A DNA stretch of 64,000 bases, taken from Antedon mediterranea. Taxonomy: Eukaryota > Echinodermata > Crinoidea > Comatulida > Antedonidae. Below, piece after piece: positions 7,018 to 59,543 of the stretch. The stretch's first letter is position 1, and each line of letters opens with the position of its first letter. The notes beneath the pieces were generated by a model. It searched no databases, had not been told where the DNA came from, and worked only from the letters and a program-made list of their open reading frames with translations. The stretch covers positions 16,092,922 to 16,156,921 of the forward strand of contig NC_092678.1 in NCBI RefSeq assembly GCF_964355755.1, in the 5' to 3' direction. Both the position numbers and the translations under genes were made by a program.

Positions 7018-8200
7018 GGATGTAGGCCTACCGTAATAAGTCGGTCATAACCGGACATTAAAATGTAGGCCTACTTGTGGCGCTTTTATTTTCTTCATTA
7101 AGTAGTTATTAGGTTACAGGGAGGCCCAGACATCTTTGAAATCCCGACGGATGTACCGTAATAAGTCGGTCATAACCGGACATTAAAATGTAGGCCTACT
7201 TGTGGCGCTTTTATTTTCTTCGTTAAGTAGTTATTAGGTTACAGGGAGGCCCAGACATCTTTGAAATCCCGACGGATGTACCGTAATAAGTCGGTCATAA
7301 CCGGACATTAAAATATAGGCCTACTTGGGGCGCTTTTATTTTCTTCGTTAAGTAGTTATTAGGTTACAGGGAGGCCCAGACATCTTTGAAATCCCGACGG
7401 ATGTACCGTAATAAGTCGATCATAATCGGACATTACGATGTAGGCCTACTTGGGGCGCTTTTATTTTCTTCGTGAAGTAGTTATTAGGTTACAGGGAGGC
7501 CCAGACATCTTTGAAATCCCGACGGATGTACCGTAATAAGTCGATCATAATCGGACATTACGATGTAGGCCTACTTGGGGCGCTTTTATTTTCTTCGTGA
7601 AGTAGTTATTAGCTTACAGGGAGGCCCGGACATCTTTGAAATCCCGACGGATGTACCGTAATAAGTCGGTCATAACCGGACATTAAAATGTAGGCCTACT
7701 TGTGGCGCTTTTATTTTCTTCGTTAAGTAGTTATTAGGTTACAGGGAGGCCCAGACATCTTTGAAATCCCGACGGATGTACCGTAATAAGTCGATCATAA
7801 CCGGACATTAAAATGTATACCTACTTGGGGCGCTTTTATTTTCTTCGTTAAGTAGTTATTAGGTTACAGGGAGGCCCAGACATCTTTGAAATCCCGACGG
7901 ATGTACCGTAATAAGTCGATCATAATCGGACATTACGATGTAGGCCTACTTGGGGCGCTTTTATTTTCTTCGTGAAGTAGTTATTAGGTTACAGGGAGGC
8001 CCAGACATCTTTGAAATCCCGACGGATGTACCGTAATAAGTCGATCATAATCGGACATTAAGATGTAGGCCTACTTGGGGCGCTTTTATTTTCTTTGTGA
8101 AGTAGTTATTAGGTTACAGGGAGGCCCAGACATCTTTGAAATCCCGACGGATGTACCGTAATAAGTTGGTCATAATCGGACATTGAAATGTATTTCGGGC
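7018..8200. repeat. 125-bp tandem satellite, about nine copies
   Basis: The word atgtaccgta recurs at 7151, 7276, 7401, 7526, 7651, 7776, 7901, 8026 and 8151, an exact 125-base period. A first, interrupted copy lies at 7018. Variants alternate in blocks (cggtcataacc versus cgatcataatc), which suggests multi-unit amplification. No coding content. Confidence 0.95.
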
Positions 8201-10381: not shown

Positions 10382-12397
10382 ATGAGAAAAGCCCAGGCGT
10401 TGTTAAAATGCCGATCTAACAGCACCATATTGGCCTTTCTGTTGTTTGTCTCTGTCGTCTCTGTTGTCATTATGCTGGAGTTTGAACTTGCAGTGAATAA
10501 GAACAGCTGGCACAAGAATGTCATTGTGCCATTATGGGCTCATCATCGCCGGTAAGTTATTTACATTTTTTCCTCCTAAATTTTATATTTGTATTGTCCA
10601 CCAGAACAAAAAAAAAATTGTTTAGTTTTGTTGTTGAATGTGCCATTTTAATGTCACATAATAAAAAAAAACGTCAAATTGGATCAATGGATTTGGAATA
10701 CCCAGAACAATATACATACCTGTAGAATAATTCTGTCTACCTTAAGAAGGCCTACTCAAAATATTATCTAATATTTAATTAAACGAATGAAATAACATTC
10801 TATAGACTTAGAATAACATTATACAAATGGTAAAACGATTACTAATATCAAAACACATTTAAAATACCTTAAAGAATTTACTATACTGAATTAAAAAAAT
10901 TCTCATGAATTTGGAATTAGAAATGTGAATTATAAGTGGCATTTCTTATAAACATTTAATTAACAATCAATAAGTTTAAATTAATCTATATTTATTTATC
11001 CTGATTTGTTGAAAATATATGAAAGTTTATATTGTATCTATCAACATCAAATTAGAGTACAAAGAATAGATAAATACAACCACCATCACAACATGTTTTT
11101 ATGTGAATTGTGTTAATCAGATCTACTAATAATTCTAACTATAACTATAGACCTAGAATCAGTATATTTATTTACTACTATTTTGTTTTTAAATTTCAGT
11201 GAAATCGATGGAAACAATGACTATGTGTATTACAGTAATAAAACCAATGGCAACATAAGTGTACCTTCACCAACACAAGCGAAATGTACTGAAGTCGATT
11301 ACATTGTGTTTCTAAAAACACACAAGACAGCGAGCACAACTCTAGCCTCCATTCTCGAGCGATTTGGCTACATCAGAAATCTACTTTTTGCTGTTAGTAA
11401 AAGTGGACATATTTTTTCTCTTTCAAATTTGTTCAACCGCGACATGGTACCGTCGCTCTTCTCTCTAAACTCTAAACGTTTAAACACATCATCTAAGCAA
11501 ACTGGATATCATCTACTTACTAACCACGTACGATACAACCGTCCAGAAATGGACGCTGTAATACACGATGCTAAGTACATTACGATCATTCGCGAACCTG
11601 TCGCAAATTTCGAATCAGCTTTTGGTTATTTTGAAATAGCTAAACATCTTGGATTAACAAGTCATAAGAATCCTATTGAAACTTTCATGAAAACGCCGAA
11701 GTTATTTCTCGACAAACATTTCTACCAGTGGAAAAGAGCTAAAAACGGCCAATTATTTGACCTTGGCCTAGAGCATGACTCATTTGATGACTACTACACT
11801 GCCAAGTATAAGATTCGGCAGCTGGACTCTGAATTCGATTTAGTTCTTATTACTGAATATTTTGATGAATCTTTGATATTGTTGAAGAAGTTGATGTGTT
11901 GGAGTTTTGAAGATATTCTCTACGTTTCGAACGGAATACGAAGCGCTAGTCATCGATACGCCCTCAACGATGAACTTCGAGCCAAAATACGGGAATGGAA
12001 TAGTGCTGACGTCATGTTGTATACACATTTTAATGAAACATTATGGAGAAAAATTAAAGAATATGAAGGAAATTTCGACAAAGATCTCATCGAGTTCCGA
12101 TTACGGCAGCAGCAAGCTATGAACAAATGTATTGACGATGAACGACTTAACAAGAACGACAGACGAGAAATTAAATATGTCTTAAAACCTAACATGACAA
12201 AGTCCATTTTCTGTCAAAATTTGCTAAGAGATGATGTAGCATATACTGATTTGATTAGAAACAAAATGAAGCAATATGGCCTGTATTTATCCTCCTCACC
12301 TAAGAAAAGTGTTCCCATTCTTCCGAGGGCACGAAAGCCACATTCTTCTTACAATCATTCGCGTCGTAGGCCTCAACGACATGTTAGAAAAACTTAA
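10382..12397 (+). CDS. Galactose 3-O-sulfotransferase-like, copy 2 (two exons)
   Basis: Exons 10382-10551 and 11200-12397 (intron GTAAGT...TTTCAG, phase 2) give 455 residues, close to the size of animal Gal3STs. The start is the ATG after tatcaaag, which opens a short basic tail (MRKAQ) and a hydrophobic helix at about residues 18-35, typical of a type II Golgi enzyme. The luminal domain has the PAPS motif KTHKTASTT, the 3'-phosphate motif IIREPVANFESAFGYF, and the blocks NHVRYN, KNGQLFDLGLEH, DLVLITEYFDESL and MLYTHFNETLW. NKT, NIS, NET and NMT are potential N-glycosylation sites. A basic tail (RRRPQRHVRKT) closes the protein. Reading frames are intact, so it is probably functional. The role in galactose sulfation is by family, and the substrate is unknown. 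Confidence 0.9.
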
Positions 12398-13207
12398 AAT
12401 ATGTATTTGTTAAAATTGTAGTAGTATGCCATTATCTATCAACACACTTGAGTTGTTAGAGGACGGTAATTTTAATGCAAACTTTTCTTCACATTAACGT
12501 GTTTCTGACACTCTCTTGACGATGACTATCCAAAAATAAACTCGAACAAGGATTATTGAGTTACCAGGTAATTAGTGATTGTTACGCAATCAATTCTATC
12601 AAGAATAATTTCATAAATTTCCATTTTACTTTGTAAAATCGATATGCTGGTAATATTCGTCAACATCAATTAACTAGTTAATCGGTGAATGTTCAAGGTA
12701 ATTTGGAAAAGTCCGTTGATCTCTGTTTTTAAAATGATCAATAACTATCAGATTCCTACAATTTTTTAAAAAAGATTAGTTAGTTAAAAGTTAAATATGG
12801 AGAGTGTTAATCTGTCTGTGTTTCGCTATTGTACAATATTACGATAATGATGATGATAATCTCAATTAATAACGTAACTATGGTATATAATGTTGCATCA
12901 TGTTTTGTAAATTGACTTATAATAATTAATTGTTATAGTATATGTTGTGAAACGTTGGGTGTTTTCACAAATTATAATAATAAAAAAAAGATGTACAGTT
13001 TTAAATAGTCTACTGTGTTTCGACTTAATATTTAAAAACTATTGAAGCCACTAAGGATAGATTTAAAGAGAATGCTTCCATTTATTAAGCTATTCCCCCA
13101 AGGCCTCTTTGTTAAACTTCCATCTGAAGTTTTCAAGAGACATCCACCAAGTACCAAATGAGTAAGTATTTTTTGTCACATTATCTTCTTTGGGATTTGG
13201 CAGTCCA
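12398..13207 (+). terminator. 3' UTR/flank of copy 2, homologous to copy 3
   Basis: This flank aligns with 59544-60360 almost throughout. An AATAAA at 12979-12984 corresponds to one at 60123-60128 in copy 3 and is the best shared poly(A) signal. Homology continues to gcagtcca, is broken by the insertion at 13208-16104, and then resumes. Confidence 0.65.
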
Positions 13208-13954
13208 CACGGTGGTTTCGATTATAATAACTATGGACATAAATTGTGTTTTCAACGCGCTTTTATTTTTTACGCTAACCAAAGCCTTTGTTGTTAAGGT
13301 TTTGCTGCACGTTTGACTGAACGCGAGAGCCAAGAGAACATCGCAGAGATAGCGATAATTACTAAGCTAGTAAATTAAACGTTACAATCATAATATAAAA
13401 TTTTAACAACAAATATTAATAATTGCAAGTAAATATACTAGTTTTACAACAAGCAATGAAGTAATACTTCAAATTCTGCAATATTAATTCAGTTATTGGT
13501 AAAAATAGTACGATAGTTTTAACGATCGTATTCGATAGATATAATTGTAAATAATTAAATATCGCCCTCAAAAAAAGCGCAAAGTACCTTGCACTCATCG
13601 TCTGATATCTGTCGAACGTAGTCACTTCACCGAAAACTGACTGTTCAACGATCATTTTCAATATTTATTCTTTCACCGTTTAAGTTTTCGTTTTGACGTA
13701 AAAACTGGTTAGATCTCCACACACCTGGAAAATAAGACTACTTTTTAAACTATAATGACATTTGATGTGAGTATTTTGGCATATTAAGATGCCTAGCCAG
13801 AGAGGGATACACTGAACTACCTGTATAATTCATAGAACGTTATTTACATTATCATTTTACTGTATTTCATTGTATTATTTGTGTTGTGTAAATAAATTTC
13901 TGATTACAAAAATTACATAATTAATTAGGCATAGGCCTACGAATAATACTAATT

Positions 13955-14782
13955 ATGGATTTCCTTTCTGAATCTTTATTAAATATTTGTAGAATTTGAA
14001 TAAAATTCAAAATTTCTGACCGAAAATATGAACTTAAAAGCATCAAAACACAAACTTTAAATTTTCTAAACATTAAAATTGTTGAAGAAGATAAAAATGT
14101 TCATCCATCATATGTTTGTCATACTTGTCAATCAGCTGCATACAAACAAACGACATTAATTACACCTTACATCTGGAGACAACACGATGATTTACATTGC
14201 ACAGCTTGTTATCTTTATGAATATCAACAGAAACAAGGTCACAGGATAAAATTCAATAAAACAACTTTCATGCAATATTTAAAATTCAATTCATTAACTG
14301 AGCAATTCACCCTTTATGACCAATCAGCACTGTCTTTGTTTCAATGTTCTATTGTAAACATATTCTGTCGCTTGATAATGTAGAAACTCCGTGTTCCCAC
14401 CATTTTTGTATGTACTGTCTCTGTCAATTTTCTGTACTCTTCGACTACGTAAATTTCCATGTTTTGCCTGTGCGTCACCGATAACATTTGAACGTGACAT
14501 GAAAAAACCATCATTACTAGTAGGCCTACAACAATCTTTGCAAACGGTTGAATTGCAATTTCGGTTGTGTAGAAAATGTCTGAAGTATAACGAGTGCAGT
14601 CAGCATAAATGCACAACAGAGGCTGAGCAACGGTATAATGCTGTAACCAATTCAATTAAGACCATAAACAAGGAAATTGTTGACGATAAGATACCCGAAC
14701 CTTTCCAGCAAGGAAGTTGGTATACAAATTACTAAAACAAACAAAAGAAATTGAGTTACCAACAAATGGAAGAGAAGGCCTG
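13955..14782 (+). pseudogene. RAG1-like N-terminal zinc-binding region, decayed
   Basis: From an ATG at 13955 the frame reads LLNICRI, then a TGA at 13997 where the second Cys of a C-x2-C would be. The motif HPSYVCHTC follows, then W-x2-H-x5-C-x2-C (HDDLHCTAC). This order matches the N-terminal zinc region of vertebrate RAG1 (CRIC, HPTEFCHNC, then W-H-C-x2-C). One missing base near 14353 shifts into a RING finger: VETPCSHHFCMYC aligns with the RAG1 RING (DPVE-x-C-x-H-x-FC-x2-C). A further shift near 14430 leads to the last RING pair PCFAC and a Cys/His-rich tail (CRKC...C..HKC). A GTGAGT at 14783 could be a splice donor. One stop and at least two frameshifts make it non-functional as read. 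Assignment to RAG1-like rather than another RING/ZAD-type protein rests on motif order and on the element's ends. Confidence 0.78.
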
Positions 14783-15066
14783 GGTGAGTTATTTTTTTTA
14801 GAAAGCCAACATTTTTCACAAAACCACTGTACCAAAGTCCAGAGATTTTATTGAATAATGGGCAAATCAAATTAACCTAAATATTATAATATAATAGTAT
14901 ATATATTTTAGACATTATTTTTAAAAACTGACCATCAATTTCAACTACTCACCATGGCTTCAAAGAAACACGCGTTCTTGCTCGCCATCCCATAATAAGA
15001 TAAAATAACCGCTCATTTAACATGTTCTCATGAATATTCATATTTTTTTCGTTTTTGAGGCTCTAA

Positions 15067-15946
15067 TATGGAACGCCGTTTACGCAACATTTCAATGATA
15101 TGAATTTTATGACGCGATATGTGAATGAAATGCATCGATATGAATTGAATGGTGCGATATATGAATGAAATGTTTTGAATTGAATGCTTTGAATTGAATG
15201 TTTTGAATGAAATGTTTTGAATGAAATGTTTTGAATGAAATGTTTTGAATAAATTGTTTTGAATGCAATGTTTTTAATGAAATGTTTTGAATGAAATGTT
15301 TTGAATGAAATGTTTTAAATGAAATGTTTTGAATGAAATGTGTGAATTGAATTGAAAAGTCAAACTATTGATGGCGTATGTCATTCCCGCTCGCGATTTT
15401 TTTTCTCAACCTCTTAGGCCTAAGCGTGGGTACCCTCATCTCCTTTCCACGCTGCCTTTACAGAGAATCCTAACAGACCTGGGTTCGGAAATATGTATTC
15501 CAATGTTTCAGGTCTGTTAGGATTCTCTGTAAAGGATCCATATTGATGACAGCGTGGAAAGGAGATGAGGGTACCCAGGCCTAGGCCTAAGAGGTTAAAA
15601 CAAAATCGCGAGCGGGAATGACATACGCCGCCAATAGTTTGACTTTTCAATTCAATTCAAACATTTCATTCAAAACATTTCATTCAAAACATTTCATTCA
15701 AAACATTTCGTTCAAAACATTTCATTCAAAACATTTTATTCAAAACATTCAATTCAAAATATTTCATTCAAAACATTTCATTCAAAACATTTCATTCAAA
15801 ACATTCAATTCAAAGCATTCAATTCAAAACATTTCATTCATATCTCGCGCCATTCAATTCATATCGATGCATTTCATTCACATATCGGGCACATATCGCG
15901 TCATAAAATTCATATCATCAAAATGTTGCGTAAACGGCGTTCCATA
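15067..15946. mobile_element. Foldback element nested in the RAG-like insertion
   Basis: The 880-base element is almost entirely a giant hairpin. Ends TATGGAACGCCGTTTACG and its complement are flanked by 6-base duplications CTCTAA (15061-15066, 15947-15952). Each arm carries a tandem array of a unit of about 12-14 bases (ttttgaatgaaatg on the left, its complement on the right). A second unique palindromic block at about 15410-15600 turns over near 15490. The long open frame across the right array encodes only a repetitive FHSKHFIQN peptide and is not a gene. Confidence 0.88.
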
Positions 15947-16104
15947 CTCTAATTCGTTAATTGTATAGGTCACTCACAAAATCCAAGAAAAAAACGTGGC
16001 TTCCGGGTATACATTTAGTGCGCCCTCTCTGGTTAGTTTATGGAAAATATTAGATTAAAATTATAGAGGGTGTATGACTTTTTGTCAATAACGAAACCAC
16101 CGTG

Positions 16105-16372
16105 TCCACTGCATGACACATCACTCATAAAGTTCTCAATATGCTTCTATATTTTGCCATTTCTCTAGCTCGGTCTCTTTTCATTTTCCCTATCCTTAGT
16201 TGCCAATCTGCTTGTCAATGTATTATCCACATATGTTTAATCTATATGAAACACAAACAGTTTCCCCACTGCAGTACGCCGCTGTGTGACATCCGATTCG
16301 TCTGTATGTTGCTACTGAGATGTTCATGGGCTATATGAAAAGTTCTTAAACAAAATATAACTGATTTATGAA
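16105..16372. repeat. Resumed paralogous 3' flank (matches 60356-60626)
   Basis: About 265 bases continue the alignment with the copy 3 flank right after the RAG-like insertion, beginning tccactgca and ending near ctgatttatga. They mark the far end of the sulfotransferase duplication unit. Confidence 0.85.
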
Positions 16373-17149: not shown

Positions 17150-18198
17150 GTGACAATGATTTCGGCAGCACTTGGTCCTTTGAAGGAAAGAAACGGTTCA
17201 TCTCGTCAGGCTATTGCTAATGTAATATAATGTGTGGAGGTTTTACTGTATTAAAGTATCGCTTGGTTGATTGAATGTCACAGTTGTTTATTCAATAATA
17301 CGTTATAATACACCATCAATACAATATATAAATACAGAAAAAGGAACAAAGTATAAGAGTGATGCAGCTGTAAGTGAGGTGTGGCTGTAGATGTGCTTCT
17401 GAAGAAGTATCGGTAAGGTGTGTGCTCCAAGAAGTGTATGTGAGGTGTATATCGGCTTCAGTTAATTAGCATATGTCATCATCATCTCTTAGGTCAATGA
17501 TTGGTCATAAGTTGGTCCAGGGCCTTTCTGGAGGGATTGATTAATTGTATATTAAGGTATTTCAATGATGGATATCATTGTCAAATATGTACTTAAATAG
17601 TGTCAATCTCTATTGGTTCAACAATGGGAAAGTTCATAAAGTTAAGCAAAGTGTTTTCATTAGGGATTTAATATATGGAGTAAATGTTTAAAACATCTGG
17701 ACTGGACCTTCTGTGGAAAATTCATGAACTCAATTGAATTGTAATACAAAGGTTGATTTCGCAATTATAAATTTATATCATTACATTACACTAAGTACAT
17801 TTTTGCCAACTACAAAGTCGATGCCAACATAAAAAAAACCTATCTCCGTATGGCGTTGAAACGCGGAGTCGAGAGCAACAAACTAGTCCAAACCGAAGGT
17901 ACTAGAGCCAGTGGTTTATTCAAGCTAAATCAGACTGCAGCAAAAGTTGATGCGGCTGCAAAGGCAAAGAAGGAACAGCTAAGAATAAGGCAGTTGACCA
18001 AAAAGACCAAAAAAACAGCTGCAAAGAAGGCAAAGAAACCAGCTACCAAGTCACTTAAAGAAGTCGGAAAAAAGAAGCCATCTTTTAAGCCTAAAAAGGC
18101 TAAATCTCCTGCAAAGAAGCCAAAGACCAAGAAGGCCAAAAATCCGAAAGCTAAAAAAGGCTTCAATATCACCAAAGAAGGCAGCTGCAAAGAATTAA
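17150..18198 (+). pseudogene. Histone H1 pseudogene interrupted by an LTR
   Basis: The first half of the winged-helix domain is read at 17150-17220 (VTMISAALGPLKERNGSSRQ, then AIA). It resumes at 17795 with YIFANYKVDANIKKTYLRM and runs through ALKRGVESNKLVQT into a lysine/alanine-rich tail. The break is exactly the LTR at 17221-17790 plus its CTAA duplication. Removing these restores the I-A-K-Y-I junction of metazoan H1. An A-run near 18155 shifts the frame: the ancestral frame reads SISPKKAAAK and stops with TAA at 18196, while the current open frame runs on to 18233. The N-terminal tail is not recognisable. H1 normally binds linker DNA. This copy cannot encode a complete protein. Confidence 0.9.
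17221..17790. mobile_element. Solo LTR-like element, copy 1, inside histone H1
   Basis: The 570-base unit begins TGTAATATAATG and ends ATTACATTACA (TG...CA, with the 6-base inverted end TGTAAT/ATTACA). It is flanked by CTAA at 17217-17220 and 17791-17794, a 4-base duplication. A second copy at 51303-53971 has its own 4-base duplication. No internal coding region or second LTR is adjacent, as expected for a solo LTR. A short-TIR DNA element cannot be fully excluded. Confidence 0.85.
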
Positions 18199-18222
18199 AA
18201 TATTTACGACCAAAAACCAAAC

Positions 18223-18237
18223 GGCTCTTTTAGAGCC
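18223..18237 (+). promoter_or_regulatory. Histone 3' stem-loop (H1 pseudogene), shortened loop
   Basis: GGCTCT-TTT-AGAGCC keeps the six-base-pair stem of replication-dependent histone mRNAs with the ACCA-type flank. The loop is 3 bases instead of the usual 4, so SLBP binding would probably be impaired. The stop of the frameshifted frame lies inside the stem-loop. A purine-rich aaagaga at 18250-18256 resembles the downstream element that pairs with U7 snRNA. Confidence 0.8.
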
Positions 18238-20491: not shown

Positions 20492-21736
20492 GGTGCAGGT
20501 CAAGTCGGCCCTATAACCGTCTCGGCCAAAGTCAAGTCGGCCGCACGTCAAGTAGGCCCAAAGTCAACTCGGCCCCAAGTCAACTCGGCCTCAAGTCAAC
20601 TCGGCCTCACGTCAACTCGGCCAAAAACTAATCGGTCAACTCGGCCACAATAAAGTATGGAACGCAAAAAGTGCTTAATATTATTATGATTCTTACTATC
20701 CACGCTTTTAAAAAAATGAATAAAAAAAAAATATATAATTAAATAATATCATATAAAAAAATGAACTCATTCCCCCGGTCAGTGAAAACACGTAGCAGTT
20801 GTAGAGTCGAAAAAGCTGCCAAAGGCGCAGCTACGAATTGTTTTCAATTGTGCAATTTGAAATTTTATTAAACGTATTAATAAAGGAAATTTGGTGAAAT
20901 CATTCCTAATTTTTTTGCTAAATATATTATTGAGGCCGAGTTGACTTGAGGCCGAGTTGACTTGAGGCCGAGTTGACTTGAGGCCGAGTTGACTTGAGGC
21001 CGAGTTGACTTGAGGCCGAGTTGACTTGAGGCCGAGTTGACTTGAGGCCGAGTTGACTTGAGGCCGAGTTGACTTGAGGCCGAGTTGACTTGAGGCCGAG
21101 TTGACTTGAGGCCGAGTTGACTTGAGGCCGAGTTGACTTGAGGCCGAGTTGACTTGAGGCCGAGTTGACTTGAGGCCGAGTTGACTTGAGGCCGAGTTGA
21201 CTTGAGGCCGAGTTGACTTGAGGCCGAGTTGACTTGAGGCCGAGTTGACTTGAGGCCGAGTTGACTTGAGGCCGAGTTGACTTGAGGCCGAGTTGACTTG
21301 AGGCCGAGTTGACTTGAGGCCGAGTTGACTTGAGGCCGAGTTGACTTGAGGCCGAGTTGACTTGAGGCCGAGTTGACTTGAGGCCGAGTTGACTTGAGGC
21401 CGAGTTGACTTGAGGCCGAGTTGACTTGAGGCCGAGTTGACTTGAGGCCGAGTTGACTTGAGGCCGAGTTGACTTGAGGCCGAGTTGACTTGAGGCCGAG
21501 TTGACTTGAGGCCGAGTTGACTTGAGGCCGACTTGACTTGAGGCCGACTTGACTTGAGGCCGACTTGACTTGAGGCCGACTTGACTTGAGGCCGACTTGA
21601 CTTGAGGCCGACTTGACTTGAGGCCGACTTGACTTGAGGCCGACTTGACTTGAGGCCGACTTGACTTGAGGCCGACTTGACTTGAGGCCGACTTGACTTT
21701 GGTCGAGACGGTTTAGGGCCGACTTGGATCGAAACC
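20492..21736. mobile_element. TIR element carrying an expanded 16-bp minisatellite
   Basis: The 1,245-base element is flanked by CATAAAAAGG at 20482-20491 and 21737-21746. Its roughly 50-base ends are inverted (tcaagtcggccctataaccg and, complemented, ccaagtcggccctaaaccg). Inside each end are copies of a 16-base word related to aagtcaactcggcctc: a few irregular copies on the left and an enormous regular array on the right. The central 20650-20930 is unique and non-coding. The intact site lies in the right arm of the surrounding palindrome near 23091-23106. Confidence 0.85.
20932..21699. repeat. 16-bp minisatellite, about 48 units
   Basis: The unit gaggccgagttgactt repeats without interruption about 37 times. 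The single-base variant gaggccgacttgactt then repeats about 11 times from about 21524. The array lacks stops in one minus-strand frame, which creates a 291-codon open frame encoding only a 16-residue periodic peptide (SQLGLKSTRPQVNSA). That frame is not a gene. Confidence 0.95.
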
Positions 21737-23449
21737 CATAAAAAGGCCTCATAGTAGAGCCAAAGGTGTTAGCCCACTACTACGGATCACTAACATCTAG
21801 GGCTAGCTAGCCTAGGCCTATGAGAGTTAATTTTAAATTAAGTAGTTACTGTAGGCCTATGGCTTCAGTAATTTCGGTCGCATTTTCGGCCTACTTTTCA
21901 GGACATGTGAGAGGTGAGGTAGGTTAGCCCAGCTAGGCTAACCTGTAAGTGTAAGTAGTATTCTAGCCCATCCATGTGATGGGTACGAGTTGGCATTGGT
22001 ACGGGTTGACCCGTATCCGTATTGTAGCTAGGGTGCTGGTCAACCCGTACCCAAACCAACCCGTATGTAATATAAATATACTTTTATTAGCATGGGTACG
22101 GGTTAACCTGTAACCTTCTAGCTAATCGTACTAAGCCTAGAGTAGGTCTATGCCACCCAGACCGGCTACAATAATGGTCTATTCTGTTACCATACTGTAA
22201 TGTGGTCCAGGTTGAGGGGCCAGGAATGATGGTAGTGCCAGTATACCGTGTACTGTAGTTTAGCCTCAAGGCAATACCATGTAGCCGTAGTAGCTTGGAG
22301 AAATACAGTAGAGATTTATGAGACTTGGTGTGTGATGATTCAGTATGATAATTGGTCCTGTAAAAAATAAAATTGTTGAATTATGAAGAAAATATTGTAA
22401 AATATAACAAGTAAATTATACTACTGTATAGTATAATTAAGGGGTAACCGTATAATATATAATTATATAATAAATGCAATGGCAATTACTAATATTATGT
22501 ATACAATATTACATTTAAATTCATATATTATTTTATTATGATAAGGAAATCTGTTTTAGAATGAGAAAAAGCCGCCCAAACCCATATTTGAACCCAGCTA
22601 TCAATAAAGCTACAGTATAAACAGAATAGACCATCAGGGTAGCATAGACCTACTCTAGGCCTAGAAAATTTTCTAGAAGGATACAGGTCAACCCTTACCC
22701 ATGCCAAATCATACCCAAATTTTGGTTTACTCATACCTAAAATGTTGGCCCACCCGTACCCATCATGGGCTGGCTCGTACTCATCATGGGCTGGCCTGTA
22801 CCCATGTTTAATGCTATTAAATGTATATTTATATTACATACGGGTTGGTTTGGGTACGGGTTGACCAGCACCCTAGCTAGAATACGGATCAACCCGTACC
22901 AATGCCAACTCGTACCCACCTACCTCACCTCTCACATGTCCTGAAAAGTAGGCCGAAAATGCGACCGAAATTACTGAAGCCCTAGGCCTAACTACTTAAT
23001 TTAAAATTAACTCTATAGGCCTAGATAGTAGTGATCCGCAGTAGTGGGCTAACACCTTTCTTTGCTTTGGCTCTACTACGAGGCCTTTTTATGCTCATAG
23101 GATAGCTTTTTTGCGGCGTACCTAATGTAGGCCTATGCCTATCTAGGCCAGATTTGTCATTCTCGCATGACTATAGCATATGCTCTAGTAGGGCTAGTGG
23201 GTGTACCCTGGTGGATTCACCCCCTGGTCGACTCGTACCCATGCCAACTCGCACTTAATTTCGTACCCACCACCCCCTCGTACCGCCTCGTACCACCCAA
23301 ATAATTGGTTGATTTCACGCTAGTAGGCCTAGCCTAGCTACGATATTCATTATGCCCTGCTAAAAAGGTAGATGAGCTACTAAACTAATTACGTAATTCG
23401 TATAATCAATAACAATAATTGACTAGGCCTAGGCCTTTCTTGCATGGCA

Positions 23450-49538: not shown

Positions 49539-52500
49539 ATGAGAAAATCTCGGGTGTTGCCGATGCAAGGGCGATTTAATGGCAACAAATTGGCCTTTCT
49601 GTTGTTGGTCTCTGTCATCTCTGTTGTCATAATGCTGCTGGAGTTTGAACTTGCAGTCAATAAGAACAGCTGGCACAAGAATGACGTCATTGTGCCATTT
49701 TGGGCTCATCGTCGCCGGTAAGTTATTTTAATTTTTTCTTTCCTAAAATTTAAAGTTATATTGTCCACCTGAAAAATTAATTTGTGGTATTTTTTTAATA
49801 TACCATTTTAATGTCACGTATTTATTTATCCATTCTAGTTTATTGAAAATATATGAGAGTTCAAATTGAGTCTATTAACCCAATGTAAAAGAACGAATAC
49901 ATCATTACATAAGGTCACTTTCATCAGTTGACACAAGATCAAAGGTCAACATTTTTATATGCATATTATTAGTTAATTATTTGATCAGTAAAGTTATAGT
50001 ATTTCATTATAACGTTAATCAATATAATTATAATACTGTAATTAATCAAATCAGACATAAAATGTTACGCTGACCTTAAATAAAATAGACGGTTAAAACA
50101 CAACTTATAACACTTTGCAAAATTAATTTTGCAAAGATGGTCAGAACATGGTTGCAGGCCTGCAATATTAATTTTGAGGCAATATAATATAACAATTTAA
50201 GGCAATAAACACTCTGATTTGATCTGCTCTGTTTATGTTGGCAATATATAATTTTGGTTTTTATTTGTTTTGGTACTCCGATAACTGAGAATACTTAGCC
50301 AGTCTGTGCACCTTAACTGGTAAACAAAATACAATTATGTGGTTTTTGTCTAGATTTGGTAGCTTTGTAAAGTTTACAGATTAGTCTTCATTGGTTTTTC
50401 ACAGGCGCCTTGAGCACTTTGGTGGATAAGCGTTTAACAAAATCTTACTATACTATTGGTTGTCACTTTTTTCATCCAAATTGCAATCAGAACATACCAG
50501 GGTTAACATTTATCAATATTTGCTTATACTTTTGCTTAAGCTAAAATATTTAAGAAGTGCTTAAGCAAATAACTTAATCTTATTTATCAAACCGTCTTGG
50601 AAAAATGTTCTTGTTCAATTTTACTTTGCACATGCGCAAAATTAAACTCTAGAAGGCAGCAAATTATGTCTTAAGACAAAAACATTCTTACTTTCGTGTT
50701 CGCATTAGCTTTTTTCTCTTAAGCCCCTTTCTCACAGAGCTGTGTGCCAGGAATGTTGCGGGAATATACCATTACCATGCCGGTATGATTTTCTGTGAGA
50801 ACGGGTCGTCTTGGCATCATGCCGGCATCGACATGACCTGCTTTAGACCTAGTAATATTACTGGGATATTCTCCGCAATGCCAAACGGGCATTCTGTGAG
50901 AACGTAACGCCAATATATTTAATTCCCCGTCGAGGCTTTGACACCTTGCGCGGTCAAGTGTATCACTTTGGCGCCGATTAATTTCAATTAACAATAATAA
51001 TGTCAAAGTGGAGGGATAATGAGATAAGAGAGCTGTTAAAATAAGGGGACAAGAAGAAATTTGTAGCATATAATCTATAGGCCATAGGCCTACTTAGCTC
51101 TTTGTTGGTGCCTGACCCTTCGTCGCCTTGTAAATTGTACAGCCTGCAGATTTCTCCTTCTAAGGTGTTTTACAGATTGCCGATGACGGCTAATTAATTG
51201 CTGTACCTGTATAATATATGCACAATATACTGTACATAGCATGTATTGCATAAATATGCTATATATGAAGATAATAATCTGTAACTTAAAATTCGCCGCC
51301 ATTGTAATATAGTGTGTTGAGGTACTGACTTGCAATGAGGACTCTACTCGCTTGACTGCAGTAACACATATATTGTTTATTCATTATAATATTTCAACTT
51401 GGTGATACAATAATAATGATGCAACTAACAAACTGACTAAGGAACAGAGGATGCGGTGATGCTGTCGGTGAGATGTGAGTGCAGGTCTGCTTCTGAGGAA
51501 GTGGCTGTGAGGTGTGTCTGGGCTCTTCTGAAACTTGGGGGTATATTGGCTTCGGTTCATTTGCATATGTCGTTACATTATCTCAGAAGCTAATGATTGG
51601 TCCTAAGTTGATCCAGGGGTGTTTAAGTGGGAGTGATTGATCTTATCTGGGGAGGTTACAATGATGAATTGGCCCTTTCAAATCTTTGCTTAAAACTGTC
51701 AATATCTAATTGTTTTACGATGGGAACGGTTAGAGAGGTCAAATAAACTGTTTACTTTGGGATTTAAATGAGAAATTTAAATGAAATATCAAAATTCACA
51801 AATGTATCATAAATTGTTATTTTCAGTTATTTCTAATCTTTGATATAATTACTTTATGGGAGAAAAAAAAATTAGAAAAAAAATGTGAAAAATTGGATTA
51901 TTTAGGCCTTATAAAATTCTCTCTAGCAACGGCTTTTGGACTATAAAAAACTAATTTACCTATGTATTTTTGAAGAAAAAAAGACAGAGCATGTTTAGAA
52001 AGCTTATTCAGAATCAACCAATCACAGGTTCTCTCTCAAACAGGCTTTATTGTCATGGTTCAGTGGCTATGAAACCACATGTTATTCATTCATAAAGCCA
52101 AGCTAACATTGTTAACATTGTCAACAAAAGCTATCAAAATGTATCAAAGTAAACAGTCAAAATTTGTCTGAAATTTGTGTTTAGATAGTCTTTATATATT
52201 TTAGAATACTTTAGTATTGAATTTAAATGGGATCTTCAAGAAATAAAGCCAGAAAAAGAGCTAGAAAGTTTCATGGTATACAAGCATAGTAAGCCCAGGC
52301 CTGATGATGATCAGAATGAGTCTAACAGTGACGCTCAAGAAGGTACTAGTACTAGGCCTAGCCTTAATTTATCTGCTTCAGCAATAAAATTGAAGAGATC
52401 TAGAGAAAGTTCAGAGTCAGGTAATGAATCTATAGGACTTGAACATTGCCAGGATGGATATGTATTTGTTAGTGTTGAGTTGCTATGTAGTTTTATTGAA

Positions 52501-55500
52501 TGCAACACAAGATGTCATGAATGCAAATGTGAGGTATCATGCGGACTGAATGTAAAAAACAAACAAGGTTTCTGCCATTTCATCAGCGTTCAATGTACAG
52601 AGTGTGATTGGAGTACACAGTTTCAAACTTCCAAAGATGTTGAAAAAGATGAATCTGTACAAGGAAAGCTCACAAAAGAGATAAATGTACGCATGGTGGC
52701 TTATGCCAGGGCAGTCGGAAAAGGACATTCATGCCTCACAAAACTTTGTATATTGGCAAATTCACCCCCACCTATGACAGAGGATTGCTACAACAGCATA
52801 TTTGAAAAAAAGTCCTTGCAGCATCAACTGAAGTTGCTAGAGAGAGCATGAGAAAAGCAACAAGTGAAATAAGAACTGATGATAGCGTCAAAGATTGTGG
52901 CCTTCATGGGAAAACTCAAAACGTAAATGAATGTTTGAACAAACTTATTTGGGACAGATGTTCAAAAGAATATTTTGTAGAGAGCCCTATTATAAAGGAT
53001 GCTGTAAATATGACTGTCAGCTATTTCAATGATGGATGCAGTAGCTTTTTGGAACTTTTTCTTTTATTAAATATAACACCAGGAACTTTGACAGAGTTGG
53101 CATGCGAGAAAACTGACTAAAAAAGAATCATGCATGCAGAAAATAAAAAATCCGATCGACAAAAGACGAACATCACTTAGACACATAAAAAAAAGGGTGG
53201 ATTGACAAAAGGCAACAAGAAGAAGGAGATGTGTATACACCAGGGGGACATTAGTGGGGTTTTTGCTCAAAAAGAACAATAAAAATGAACTTTTGCATGC
53301 GTGCTGATATATTATAATGTGTATATGATTTTCCGCCTCCGTTTCCGTGGAACCATATTTTGATCAATTTGGTATCTTTGAAACATGATTACTCAAAATC
53401 AACTGTATCAATCTTGATAAAATTTGGTATACATACAGCACTAACTGTACTCTACTGCATAAAATAAAATTAATAATGTTGTGTTTGTTAATAACTTAAT
53501 TTACTCATATGAATAATATAATGAGCCATCGAAACATTTTAAAAAGTCGTATATGATTAATATTATCAATCTGTCATAAAATATTTTAGGTTTTAAAGGT
53601 TCATGCAGTGCATTATGATGTAATAGATGTAATTACAAAGTTTGATTGAATTCCATTTAGCCAATTTTAAGATATGGTGTTTTAAAGATTTACTGTAATT
53701 TGATACGTTGGGGGCCATTTTGAATATATAATTAGCGCTAATTAAAAATTTGTTTGTTTAAATATAATTGTTATGACCTAATTTACAAATAAAACTTACT
53801 GTTACCTTTATTTAAACTAAAATTAAATAAATGACTTTTTTACCCATGTTCTTTTAAAACATCTGGACAATTTCTCCTCTGGACATTCTGGGTCAAATTC
53901 GTGAACTTAGTTGATTTCTAATACAAAAGTTGATTTCTCAATTATAAAAGTATATCATTATAATTATTACACCATATATCGCTATACAAAAATAATAACA
54001 ATAAAGGACGCCCTCAATAATTATTTTGTCAGATACTTTTTATTGGCCGAATATGCCCGACTCCTTTCTCACAAAAATCCGGTATATACCGGTTATATTT
54101 CCGGCACGATAGTCCAATGAGAATGGGTATATGCCGGTAACAATACCGGCACGACGCCAGCGTCATACCGGTATATAGCAGGCACATCTGTGAGAAAGGG
54201 ACTTTAGCAATGGCTGCACTATAACATTTTATCTCCGTATTTTCACTCCCAACAAGAGAGGGCATTCTGGCTACTAGTATTTTTATTACTTGAAATAGAG
54301 AAAGAGCACAACAGTCGGAAATACATACGAAAATCATTTGCTCATTCTGTGAAGATTTTGGTCATTTGGTTTAGTTTGCAACAAAGTTTTGATTATCTCT
54401 ACACGTAACCACCAGGAATGATTTCTGATTTCTCTTTCGAAAAAAAGAAGAGACTCTACAGCTCACTTTGTCGGTTGGTTGGTAAAAACTAATTTGAGCA
54501 CGTGACTGCAGCCATGTATATGGCTTTGTTTATATTAGTTGACATTGACTTGGTTCTTTTAGTCTCCGACCCTTGTCACTGCCAATAATGATTTTTGATA
54601 TCCCATTCATTTTATCCTAATAGTCTATTGTTTTCCAATACAATGTAATGTTTTATTATGAATAAGCTTAAATTGAAATGAAAATATCTTACGTTCGTTA
54701 TATAGACGCATAAAGAAGAGAATCAGATGAGTTTATTCTCTCCTGACATCATACTCCTAACTTTGAACAGTATATATGCAACCTTGGGAAAGGTGGATCT
54801 TAACTGGCTTTCCTTCTCTTCAGAAAACAAAATGTGTACTACACTATGAACAGGAATCTGTGGCTAGCAACAATATCGAGACTCATATAAACAGTGTGGT
54901 CTGTTTGTGTAGTGAGTTGTGGATTCCAGTTTTTATTATTCAATAAAAGAAAAAATCTAAGTCATTATTGATCAAGATTATAGATCTGAGTAAATGTGTC
55001 GTCAACTAGGGAAACATGCAATATTCTCTTAATATTTTCAAAAGGACATAGTGACGAATCCAAGATCATTAAATAGAAAATGATGGGATCAGTGAATGGC
55101 CAGAGTCCTAGAAATTGTGAATTGAAATTAAAGGTGGGGGTGGTATTCTCTGATTCTGACATTAGGGTTGGTGAGTACCCTGCCAAAATACGCAAACTAT
55201 GCCAAAATACGCAAATTGAGGGCGCTATGCTTTGCCAAAATACGCAAATCATGCCAAAATACGCAAATTTGCTTTACCAAAATACGCAAATCAAGCCAAA
55301 ATACGTAAATTGAGAGCGCTATGCTTTGCCAAAATACGCAAATCTGCTTTGCCAAAATACACAAATCATGCCAAAATACGCCAATCTGCTTTGCCAAAAT
55401 ACACAAATCATTCCAAAATACGCAATTTTAGGGCGCTATGCTTTGACATAATACACAATTCATGCCGAAAAGCACAAATCTGCTTTTCCAAAATACGCAA

Positions 55501-55886: not shown

Positions 55887-58800
55887 CAATGATGTTGCGT
55901 AGCACTGTGTAAATTATATATAAATCATACTGTAAATTATAGAAACAGTGCTCATATTCGGAACATGATCTCATAATCGCGTCGAGCATAGCTCATTGGC
56001 GAAAGTTCCGTATTTTTTAGTTGTATGAAAAAATGTCTCTGGCTGGATTCGAATCATTGATTTACATATACACAATATGATTTAAAAAACCGTTGCGAAT
56101 TAAAGTTGGAATTTATTCTGACTTGTCAAGCCTCCACTGATTGTGAGGGCGTTTGTTGTATGAGAGAATGTATCTGGTGGGTGAAAATCTGTGATAATAC
56201 CATACATGGCTCTGTGGCCTAGTGGTATGATACTCGCCCTGTAAGCGAGAGGTTGCAGGTTCGAATCCAGCCAGAGACATTTTTTCATACAACTAAAAAA
56301 TACGGAACTTTCGCCAATGAGCTATGCTCGACGCGATTATGAGATCATGTTCCGAATATGAGCACTGTTTCTATAATTTACAGTATGATTTATATATATA
56401 TATATATATAAACAAATCAGGCACAGAACATTAATTCTAAACCGCCCGGTGATATATATATAAATCAATGATGTTGCGTAGCACTGTGTAAATTATATAT
56501 AAATCATACTGTAAATTATAGAAACAGTGCTCATATTCGGAACATGATCTCATAATCGCGTCGAGCATAGCTCATTGGCGAAAGTTCCGTATTTTTTAGT
56601 TGTATGAAAAAATGTCTGGCGGGATTCGAACCTGCAACCTCTCGCTTACAGGGCGAGTATCATATAACCACTAGGCCACAGAGGAGCCATGTATGGTATT
56701 ATCACAGATTTTCACCCAGATACATTCTCTCATACAACAAACGCCCTCACAATCAGTGGAGGCTTAACAAGTCAGAATAAATTCTAACTTTAATTCGCAA
56801 CTGTCGTGTCAATTGATTGAAATTGAAAATACGGAACTTTCGCCAATGAGCTATGCTCGACGCGATTATGAGATCATGTTCCGAATATGAGCACTGTTTC
56901 TATAATTTACAGTATGATTTATATATAATTTACACAGTGCTACGCAACACCATTGATTTACATATACACAATATTATTTAAAAAACCATTTAAAAAATAT
57001 ATACTGTATTTTAGCTAAAATTCAGTATATAAAATAATTTAACTTAATTACATAATGTACAATAAACACATGATAGTATTGCCCAATAGAATTTACTCAT
57101 TTTTTTAGGCACAGGCCTAGCCTAGGTAGGGCTTCTACTTCTAGGCCCTAGCTAGCTACCATTTTAAAACCCAAAAACAATCGAAATAACTATTCCGAAT
57201 CCGTCTTATGCTACATTACGCGAGTTAACATATTATTTCAGATGAAAAACATTGAGTTTTATATTGTTTTATCCATACGTAATTACACTGGCATTAAAGA
57301 TATAACATTAAAATGTAGGCCGTTTATGAGCTATTTCGCCGATTTCTTATCGCTGGGAAATTCCCCATCAGACAGCAGGGACATCGATCGATCGATCGAG
57401 GAGTAGGCCTAGGCTAGAGGCCTAGCGTGCATGCCGGAACGGGTGGAATATTATTGCTATATAAATAACAAGTTTGAACAAAAGAGCTTACGAAAATCTT
57501 AGGTAAAAAAATCAAAATGCGGTAGAAAACGTCGAGATAGCGGTAGCGCGGTATATGGGTACTAAAAGCGGTAGACTACCGCGAGTAGCGGTAGACTTGG
57601 GACCCCTGAAAGTCTCGGCTTTGACTTTGAATTAACGGTGTTGCTGGAAAAAATTGCAGAGATTTGCTATCAGACGATCAAAAGCTTGAAATTACCGCGA
57701 CGATAAACTTTCGCCGTGAGGGCACTATTTATGTATTTTTTCGGCTTTTGGAACTATCGCAAACATCGTTAAAATGTCTTGTTTTTAATAATATTCTCTA
57801 ATCTTAGACAATTTGTCCTAATGCTAAATACAAAAAATAAAGCAAACACTGTAAGATTGGAAGAAAACTTTATTAATTGGTCATTGTAAGTAATTATATA
57901 ATAATTGTAAATAATAGTTTTTATTTGGTTTTATAGTTACGTTCTATGATTGGTCAATATTGAATCACAAATGATTTTTTATATGGTGATTGAATAGACA
58001 CCTATAATCATAAAAATGTAATAAAATACCAAATTGTGCTTCGAAAAATGTGTTATAATACATATACATAATACATTGTTGTAATTGTTAAATTTTGAAC
58101 TTTAATCCTTTATACTGTATCTCAAAAACGCTTCCTATCTTGATCGATTACCTTCCATAATCGTTGTATGGCAATTTGTCCCTTTCGGGCAGTGATTCCC
58201 CCCTCTTGCAACCGGACTATAACGAATAGATAAATACAACCACCACCATAACATTTTAAATTTAATAGAAAGCTCTATACTCTATAGTCAATATTTATTT
58301 ACATATTATTTTGTTTTAACTTTTAACTTTTAGTGTAATCAATGAAACACAAGCGAAATGTACTGATGGAAACAATGTGTGTAATGAAACAAATGACAAC
58401 ATAAGTGTACCTTCACCAACACAAGCGAAATGTACTGAAGTTGATTATATTGTGTTTCTAAAAACACACAAGACAGCCAGCACAACTCTAGCCTCCATTC
58501 TCGAGCGATTTGGCTACATCAGAAATCTACTTTTTGCCGTTAGTAAAAGGGGACATACTATTTCTGATTCACATTTGTTTAACAGCAATATGATACCTTC
58601 ACTCTCTTCTCTTAACTCTAAAGGTTTAAATATATCATCTATGGGAACTGGATATCATCTACTTACTAACCACGTAAGATACAACCGTCCAGAACTGGAC
58701 GCTGTGATCCACGATGCTAAGTACATAACGATCATTCGCGAACCTGTCGCAAATTTCGAATCAGCTTTTGGTTATTTTGAAATGGCTAAACATCTTAGAT

Positions 58801-59543
58801 TGACAAGTCATAAGAATCCTATTGAAACGTTCATGAAAACGCCTAAGTTATTTCTCGACAAACATTTCTACCAGTGGAAAAGAGCTAAGAACGGCCAATT
58901 ATTTGACCTGGGCCTAGAGCATAAAACGATTGATGACTACTACACTGTAAAGCAAAAAATTCAGAAACTGGACTCTGAATTTGATTTAGTTCTTATTACT
59001 GAATATTTTGATGAATCTTTGATATTGTTGAAGAGGTTGATGTGTTGGAGTTTTGAAGATATTCTCTACGTTTCTAACGGAATACGAAGCGCGAGTCATC
59101 GATACGCCCTCAATTTTGAACTTCGAGCAAAAATACGCGAATGGAATAGTGCTGACGTCATGCTGTATACACATTTTAATGAAACATTATGGAGAAAAAT
59201 TAAAGAATATGAAGGAAATTTCGACAAAGATCTCGCCGAGTTCCGATTACGGCAACAACAAGCTATGAACAAATGTATTGACGATGAACGACTTAACAAG
59301 AAAGACAGACGAGAAGTTAAATATGTCCTAAAACCTAACATGACAAAGTCCATTTTCTGTCAGAATTTGCTGAGAGATGATGTAGTATATACTAAGTTGA
59401 TAAGAAACAAAATGAAGCAATATGGCCTGTATTTACCCTCCTCACCTAATAAAAGTATTCCCGTTGTCCCGGGGGCACGGAAGCCACATTCTTCTAATAA
59501 GCATTCACGTCGTCGGCCTCAACAACGTGTTAGAAAAACTTAG
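49539..59543 (+). CDS. Galactose 3-O-sulfotransferase-like, copy 3 (two exons, long intron)
   Basis: Exons 49539-49717 and 58334-59543 (GTAAGT...CTTTTAG, phase 2) give 462 residues. Exon 1 encodes a basic tail (MRKSR) and a hydrophobic anchor around LAFLLLVSVISVVIMLLEFE. Exon 2 carries KTHKTASTT, IIREPVANFESAFGYF, KNGQLFDLGLEH, DLVLITEYFDESL and the basic end RRRPQQRVRKT. It is very similar to copy 2 in exons, intron ends and 3' flank, so the two are recent duplicates. Just after the intron, copy 3 repeats the segment TQAKCT twice, a local duplication not present in copy 2. The reading frame is intact. An apparent GTG start at 58377 is internal to the exon. The 8,616-base intron against 648 in copy 2 is due to mobile DNA, so splicing should be confirmed. 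Confidence 0.87.
49718..51298. other. Intron of copy 3, first part
   Basis: Up to about 49895 the sequence aligns with the copy 2 intron (for example tttattgaaaatatatga). The inserted DNA follows. At 50723-50910 one arm of a MITE-like repeat (cccctttctcacagag with gccggcat words) is seen, related to 54055-54205. Confidence 0.55.
51303..53971. mobile_element. Solo LTR-like element, copy 2, split by a Mutator-like relic
   Basis: The outer parts 51303 to about 51770 and about 53825-53971 align with the LTR inside histone H1. Ends are TGTAATATAGTG and ATTATTACA, flanked by CCAT at 51299-51302 and 53972-53975. The roughly 2 kb between them is the transposase relic. The candidate insertion target is a TTAA (gggatTTAAatg on the left, aaaaTTAAata on the right). 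Confidence 0.82.
52227..53120 (+). pseudogene. Mutator-like/Kolobok-type transposase relic with deleted core
   Basis: An ATG at 52227 opens MGSSRNKARKRARKFHG, then a frameshift leads into the frame at 52273. This has a Cys-rich segment (CHECKCEVSCG, CTECDW) and then NVRMVAYARAVGKGHSCL and SPPPM. These motifs are characteristic of the 'Mutator-like transposase' domain of Kolobok-like animal transposons. A second shift near 52815 gives EVARESMRKATSEIR. After an internal deletion the C-terminal part GKTQNVNECLNKLIWDRCSK and YFNDGCSSF follows, with a stop at 53118-53120. The catalytic DDE core is missing, so the element is non-autonomous and inactive. Confidence 0.8.
54055..54205. mobile_element. 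Short MITE-like element
   Basis: About 150 bases with inverted ends (ctcctttctcaca and tgtgagaaaggg) and internal repeats of accggtatata/tatgccggta type. Related words occur at 50723-50910. No coding capacity. Confidence 0.7.
54449..54530 (+). repeat. R4 short element, decayed copy 4
   Basis: It matches R4 at agactcta-agttcact-tgtcggttggt and gagcacgtgactgcagcc, with the tract largely lost. The boundaries are approximate. Confidence 0.55.
54535..55175. other. Intronic spacer
   Basis: Nothing coding or repetitive is recognised. Confidence 0.4.
55180..55705. repeat. Tandem array of ccaaaatacgcaaat units
   Basis: Units of 17-19 bases (gccaaaatacgcaaatc with variants) alternate with gagggcgctatgctttg. 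The two together form a higher-order period of about 55-100 bases. The units lack stops in several frames of both strands, which creates overlapping open frames of up to 128 codons. These are products of the repeat, not genes. Confidence 0.9.
55800..55882. repeat. (TA)n microsatellite
   Basis: About 80 bases are almost pure TA dinucleotides next to the palindromic tRNA-bearing element. A second short tract is at 56395-56410. Confidence 0.95.
55883..56960. mobile_element. Paired palindromic elements with a tRNA-like core
   Basis: Two neighbouring units (about 55883-56397 and 56458-56960) have the same arms, with landmarks gcgtagcactgtgtaaatt and gctcattggcgaaagttcc and their complements. In unit 1 the core (tRNA-like at 56208-56278) points right. 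In unit 2 the same core is inverted (complement at about 56625-56697) while the arms keep their order. The left arm of unit 1 continues into a complementary copy of the tRNA 3' half (ggctggattcgaatc at 56039-56053). This implies that the tRNA-like end took part in forming the palindrome. Confidence 0.8.
56208..56278 (+). tRNA. tRNA-like sequence (probably tRNA-derived repeat)
   Basis: The 71 bases have near-complete acceptor pairing (ggctctg with cagagac, one mismatch), a D-arm with the A-box-like tggcctagtggtatgatac, an anticodon stem ctcgc/gcgag and the B box ggttcgaatcc. The loop CCTGTAA would give anticodon TGT, but base 33 is C rather than the universal U. With its position inside repeated palindromes, this argues for a tRNA-derived element rather than a working tRNA gene. 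Pol III transcription is possible. Confidence 0.5.
56965..58333. other. Intron of copy 3, last part
   Basis: Mostly unrecognised. From about 58222 (gaatagataaatacaaccac) the sequence again aligns with the copy 2 intron (11064 onward) and ends in the acceptor cttttag. A (CGAT)n tract lies at about 57384-57398. Confidence 0.55.

Follow-up and report, generated by a model that had tools for sequence, protein, structure and literature searches.

The question raised by this locus is what kind of mobile element left a decayed, zinc-rich coding exon in the genome of the crinoid Antedon mediterranea. The exon lies in a window of 64,000 nucleotides (the whole stretch of DNA that was analysed), and the initial annotation took it for a relic of a RAG1-like transposon. 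We propose instead, with high confidence, that it belongs to a Chapaev DNA transposon, of which this copy is dead and internally deleted, and that the region represents exon 1. Two features define the exon.

13955 to 14773, plus strand: decayed exon 1 with Chapa-type zinc blocks, a RING and a C2H2-like zinc; interrupted by a stop behind CRI and, starting at the RING, by frameshifts; open counterpart at 1151-1975 of the related locus L016
14784 to 14789, plus strand: GTGAGT, the probable equivalent of the relatives' exon-1 splice donor, where the relative reads NGR then VSYFF

Translation of 13955-14782 gives NICRI(stop), HPSYVCHTC and IWRQH..HCTAC in that sequence. The RING, DNVETPCSHHFCMYC, sits one frame on from these zinc blocks, and the third frame supplies FPCFAC, then CRKC...H.C. 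The motif series first noticed here (CRI(stop), HPSYVCHTC, W-x2-H...C-x2-C, RING, PCFAC) is therefore present in order, and the accompanying view of a decayed copy with a frameshift ahead of the RING is borne out by the RING in the next frame, the stop after CRI and two single-base losses. Among relatives whose exon is still open, the nearest is L016 (L003 is the same copy; contig C4), with 93.6% DNA identity over 1,747 aligned columns; compared with it, the window exon has the two losses from the RING on and additional small indels. L016 reads CRICG at the position of CRI(stop), and its exon is open throughout: MDFHSESLLNICRICG...HPSYVCHTC...WRQH..C..C...RING...C..C...H.C...NGR, then GTGAGT.

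Nine loci around zinc-block matches in the same genome were considered (L016, L017, L018 and L020-L025), of which six were aligned; L020, which closely resembles L022, the broken L021 and the frameshifted L025 were omitted, and L019, the C9 copy, served for comparison only. Exon 1 can be aligned end to end across these six families, with 19 invariant cysteines and histidines in the zinc blocks (first-row numbering: C12, C15, C57, C60, H79, C84, C87, C133, C136, C149, H151, C154, C157, C172, C175, C202, C205, H216 and C218). An HMM built from five other families, with the window and L016 excluded, was run against all window open frames of at least 20 amino acids. It recovered three overlapping frames of the exon (E 4.8e-29, 4.3e-19 and 1.7e-8); the next-ranked frame (E 0.56) lies inside the same element, and the best elsewhere scored E 0.69. 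Judged by these scores, the resemblance of the window frames to the family is not chance.

The resemblance to RAG1 emerges from the family profile. Comparison of the exon-1 profile (A1) with the PDB gave 154 sequences up to E 1; among the best 60 of these, the top six were all RAG1. On full-length RAG1 (6oem), the profile covers residues 102-378 (E 1.5e-13) in a co-linear alignment of zinc blocks, RING and C2H2-like zinc, and the RAG1 zinc dimerisation domain (1rmd) matches at E 2.2e-9. The Pfam model RAG1_imp_bd (cut-off 23.3 bits) scored above its cut-off in two of four relatives, L024 (31.2) and L016 (23.9), and below it in L017 (18.3) and L018 (13.6). The proposed correspondence in order with the RAG1 N-terminal region thus holds. 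Because the profile is co-linear with RAG1 102-378, we conclude from these alignments that the zinc module of the Chapaev family is homologous to that region; in vertebrate RAG1, the importin-binding/Chapa region and the RING zinc dimerisation domain follow one another in the same arrangement, whereas in the present transposon family the module is attached to a DUF1280 core. The window letters alone match RAG1_imp_bd only at E 0.11 (12.5 bits, under the cut-off), and a PDB search with the window protein P0001 returned three matches, RAG1 not among them. The suggested check against a RAG1 zinc-domain profile therefore succeeds for the relatives L024 and L016 and fails for the window copy, whose link to RAG1 is made through its relatives for this reason.

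Could the likeness be that of an unrelated RING or ZAD gene that resembles RAG1 by chance? The RING part leaves room for such a reading, since the UHRF1 and BRCA1 RINGs match the profile at E 1.2e-8, the level of RAG1 chains matched in the RING part alone; a RING match taken singly is therefore not specific to RAG1. In three of the four relatives scanned, Pfam RING models scored under their cut-offs, and none was listed for L016. However, the match includes the zinc blocks ahead of the RING: a 137-residue RAG1 chain (21wb) is matched only there, at profile positions 4-88 (E 3e-5), and RAG1_imp_bd exceeds its cut-off in two relatives. ZAD was named by no Pfam scan (these were general scans rather than ZAD-targeted ones). 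The outcome held out beforehand as refuting a RAG1 link, best matches to unrelated RING or ZAD proteins without a RAG1 match over the zinc pairs, is contradicted by 21wb, and we give chance resemblance practically no credence.

Homology to the RAG1 N-terminal region leaves the parent element to be decided, and here the relatives' cores are informative. A protein search of the genome, taken to E 0.1, gave 34 zinc-block matches with the window counted, and in 28 of them a DUF1280 match follows within 6 kb downstream on the same strand; the remaining six, the window copy among them, have none inside 6 kb. The genome holds at least 53 DUF1280 matches. Pfam DUF1280 was found in all five relatives' cores, with E values no higher than 0.1 and as low as 3.6e-17. 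The cores also show C-x2-C (seen as CLFC, CIYC or CLYC), LH(I/L)SLG and H-x4-H, and candidates for the acidic triad in GGDKGG, FGDY(E/D) and EQGGE. In the literature, Chapaev elements are marked by C(2)C, LH and H(4)H motifs, by ends of the CAC/GTG type and by duplications of 3 to 4 bp (PMC4079192); DUF1280 denotes Chapaev transposases, of the same clade of RNase-H-like enzymes as RAG1 (PMC3985635); and a Chapa domain with a RING occurs in two Chapaev subgroups (PMC4411706). The relatives thus show the Chapaev core in DUF1280, the three motifs and the candidate DDE residues, and the Chapa-then-RING order that these papers give for Chapaev (CMC group); the window copy differs in having lost its core by deletion and in carrying a foldback insertion. 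In L016, the LH exon was not found in the 1.5 kb searched, so this copy too is incomplete.

Why the window copy has no core is apparent from its alignment to L016, which defines the following features.

13208 to 16104, plus strand: internally deleted Chapaev-type transposon copy with a later foldback insertion inside, from the alignment to L016 and the ends
13204 to 13207, no strand: target site duplication TCCA, left copy
13208 to 13220, plus strand: left terminal inverted repeat CACGGTGGTTTCG, 13 bp, starting CAC
14937 to 14939, plus strand: deletion junction, where L016 position 2129 passes to 7650; about 5.5 kb gone, including the core exons
15067 to 15946, no strand: foldback (long inverted repeat) element of 880 bp inside the transposon, flanked by CTCTAA
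15947 to 16104, plus strand: 3' end of the Chapaev copy, from the L016 alignment
16092 to 16104, minus strand: right terminal inverted repeat, the reverse complement of CACGGTGGTTTCG
16105 to 16108, no strand: target site duplication TCCA, right copy

Three blocks make up this alignment: window 13207-14939 equals L016 412-2129, 14937-15067 equals 7650-7780, and 15947-16104 equals 7774-7930. Compared with L016, the window copy therefore lacks about 5.5 kb and has gained an insert of about 880 bp. A search of the genome with the junction (14790-15066), in which the best candidates were scored, listed 14 matches, and among these only the window's own spans both sides. On the alignment evidence, the core is missing through the copy's own internal deletion. 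The idea of a fossil that keeps the N-terminal region by nature has to be given up accordingly: the relatives retain the core that this copy lost.

The same data bear on the proposal that the window holds a stand-alone element coding only a RAG1 N-terminal-like protein. Such an element has a precedent in Aplysia N-RAG-TP, which, as described in PMC8355894, is composed entirely of a RAG1 N-terminal-like region; it resembles the present case in that a mobile element carries a RAG1 N-terminal-like protein. The window copy does have the N-terminal exon only, and the six zinc-block matches without a nearby DUF1280 would suit this proposal. Both flanks of the window copy, however, align to a 7.5-kb core-bearing relative with the middle gone, the junction occurs in none of the other 13 matches listed, and most relatives here, unlike the Aplysia element, also carry a transposase core (28 of 34 matches with the core downstream). 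We regard a stand-alone element as extremely unlikely.

The ends of the element support assignment to Chapaev. The target duplication is 4 bp in the window (TCCA; the fifth flanking base is mismatched), in L016 (AGTA) and in L024 (GCTG), within the 3 to 4 bp expected of Chapaev. L016 has the same CAC/GTG ends as the window's 13-bp repeat, with 13 of 16 end bases, and L024 has a CAC/GTG pair with 12 of 16. A third pair, in L023 (13 of 16, TCTC duplication), is located in a TCTC repeat and is less sure. Ends were thus recovered in three of the eight loci tested; in the other five (L017, L018, L020, L022 and L025), no CAC/GTG pair with a 4-bp duplication was found, L017 and L018 having too little 5' flank for the search. 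When the bases of the flanks were shuffled 100 times, with the best 4-bp-flanked CAC/GTG pair out of 16 end bases as the statistic, 12 of 16 was reached in none for L016, two for L023 and none for L024, and 13 of 16 in none for any of the three; the end pairs of L016 and L024 are each better than 100 of 100 shuffles. CAC...GTG ends and a 4-bp duplication are shared with Chapaev as described in PMC4079192, PMC3985635 and PMC4411706. The case for membership in Chapaev consists of Pfam DUF1280, the motifs, the ends and these papers.

Four further loci, L002, L004, L005 and L006, were rejected as separate insertions. In each, a related element is embedded in a longer unit whose repeats are about 99% identical; their similarity continues about 640 bp beyond a mutated 5' end, reaching the edge of the loci examined, and AAC and TAC stand at their ends. 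As copies of a larger repeated unit, they were excluded from the target-duplication evidence.

Duplication length and core also decide against the reading first given to the locus, in which a RAG-like (RAGL/ProtoRAG/TransibSU) transposon left a relic that retains the N-terminal region alone. That reading draws on the homology to RAG1 102-378 and on the lancelet, whose RAG1L, according to PMC7204232, also has N-terminal zinc motifs and a ring zinc domain; consequently the zinc region alone cannot separate Chapaev from RAGL. TransibSU, according to PMC4411706, is without a RING. The V(D)J heptamer is CACAGTG. The element's end at 13208, CACGGTG, differs from it by a single base, which could be counted for a RAG-like origin; the likeness may mean little, because CAC is common to Chapaev ends generally. 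What distinguishes the two families is the core and the duplication length. RAGL elements share N-terminal zinc motifs with RAG1 but have 5-bp duplications and a RAG1-type core with RAG2L, whereas the duplications here are 4 bp and the relatives, including near-identical ones, have DUF1280 in place of a RAG1/Transib-type catalytic core. A search of the genome with PF12940 (RAG1 core) gave no match, a weak argument given that its control also matched nowhere. Neither RAG1 nor Transib was matched when the core profiles were compared with the PDB by sequence (A2 without the short exon bearing the second acidic residue, A3 including it); the distance between the DUF1280 core and that of RAG1 is too great for these sequence searches. 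A RAG1-like transposon as parent thus fails on both counts, and we consider a RAG-like relic very improbable.

With Chapaev as the preferred identity, an outline of its mechanism can be proposed. Fuller relatives appear to have one transposase gene of roughly ten exons, as suggested by the predicted exon joins, in which the N-terminal zinc module (Chapa, RING, C2H2-like zinc) precedes the DDE RNase-H-like core (DUF1280). Complete copies probably encode a multi-exon transposase that, from what is known of the family, would bind the element ends, excise the element at CAC...GTG and reinsert it with a 4-bp stagger that yields the duplication. By analogy with RAG1, the RING/zinc module could serve in dimerisation or as a ubiquitin ligase. 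With a disrupted exon 1 and no core, the window copy cannot encode a transposase and probably makes no working protein; since both ends are kept, it may once have been mobilised by other copies.

In itself, the window relic is ordinary. The relationship between Chapaev and the RAG1 N-terminal region is real but previously described, and this is one more genome confirming Chapaev transposase homologues of the RAG1 non-core region. In several Chapaev families of this genome, a zinc module that is open and collinear with RAG1 is linked to a distant DDE core. It is conceivable, though we would bet against it, that they preserve the architecture that donated the RAG1 non-core region and that the module remains in use, for instance as a ubiquitin ligase regulating transposition. 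The original function of the RAG1 N-terminal region, before it became part of the V(D)J recombinase, is better studied in the fuller relatives than in the relic.

Other mobile sequences accompany the element. The foldback at 15067-15946 has 290-nt arms, 95% complementary, with internal repeats spaced by 14 bp. Its first 68 bases have at least 40 full-length genome matches at 99-100%, its own included (the best 40 of 303 candidates were scored, and some matches are the two arms of one copy), so the family has spread recently; its position within Chapaev sequence indicates that it inserted after the Chapaev copy. Six copies elsewhere in the genome (L008-L013) share an identical 59.4-bit, 35% match and an open frame of 297 amino acids, which suggests a recently active family.

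The window also contains a fragment of a Mutator-like transposase at 52189-52848 (PF20700, E 2.3e-9), an open frame like linker histone H1 at 17757-18230 (PF00538, E 5e-10) and an open tandem repeat at 20782-21768, with units like VGLKSSRPQVKSASSQ and three overlapping minus-strand frames readable. Three long open frames (1277-2377, 11117-12394 and 58320-59540) match galactose-3-O-sulfotransferase (PF06990, E 5.3e-67 to 6e-64) and form a local paralogue cluster.
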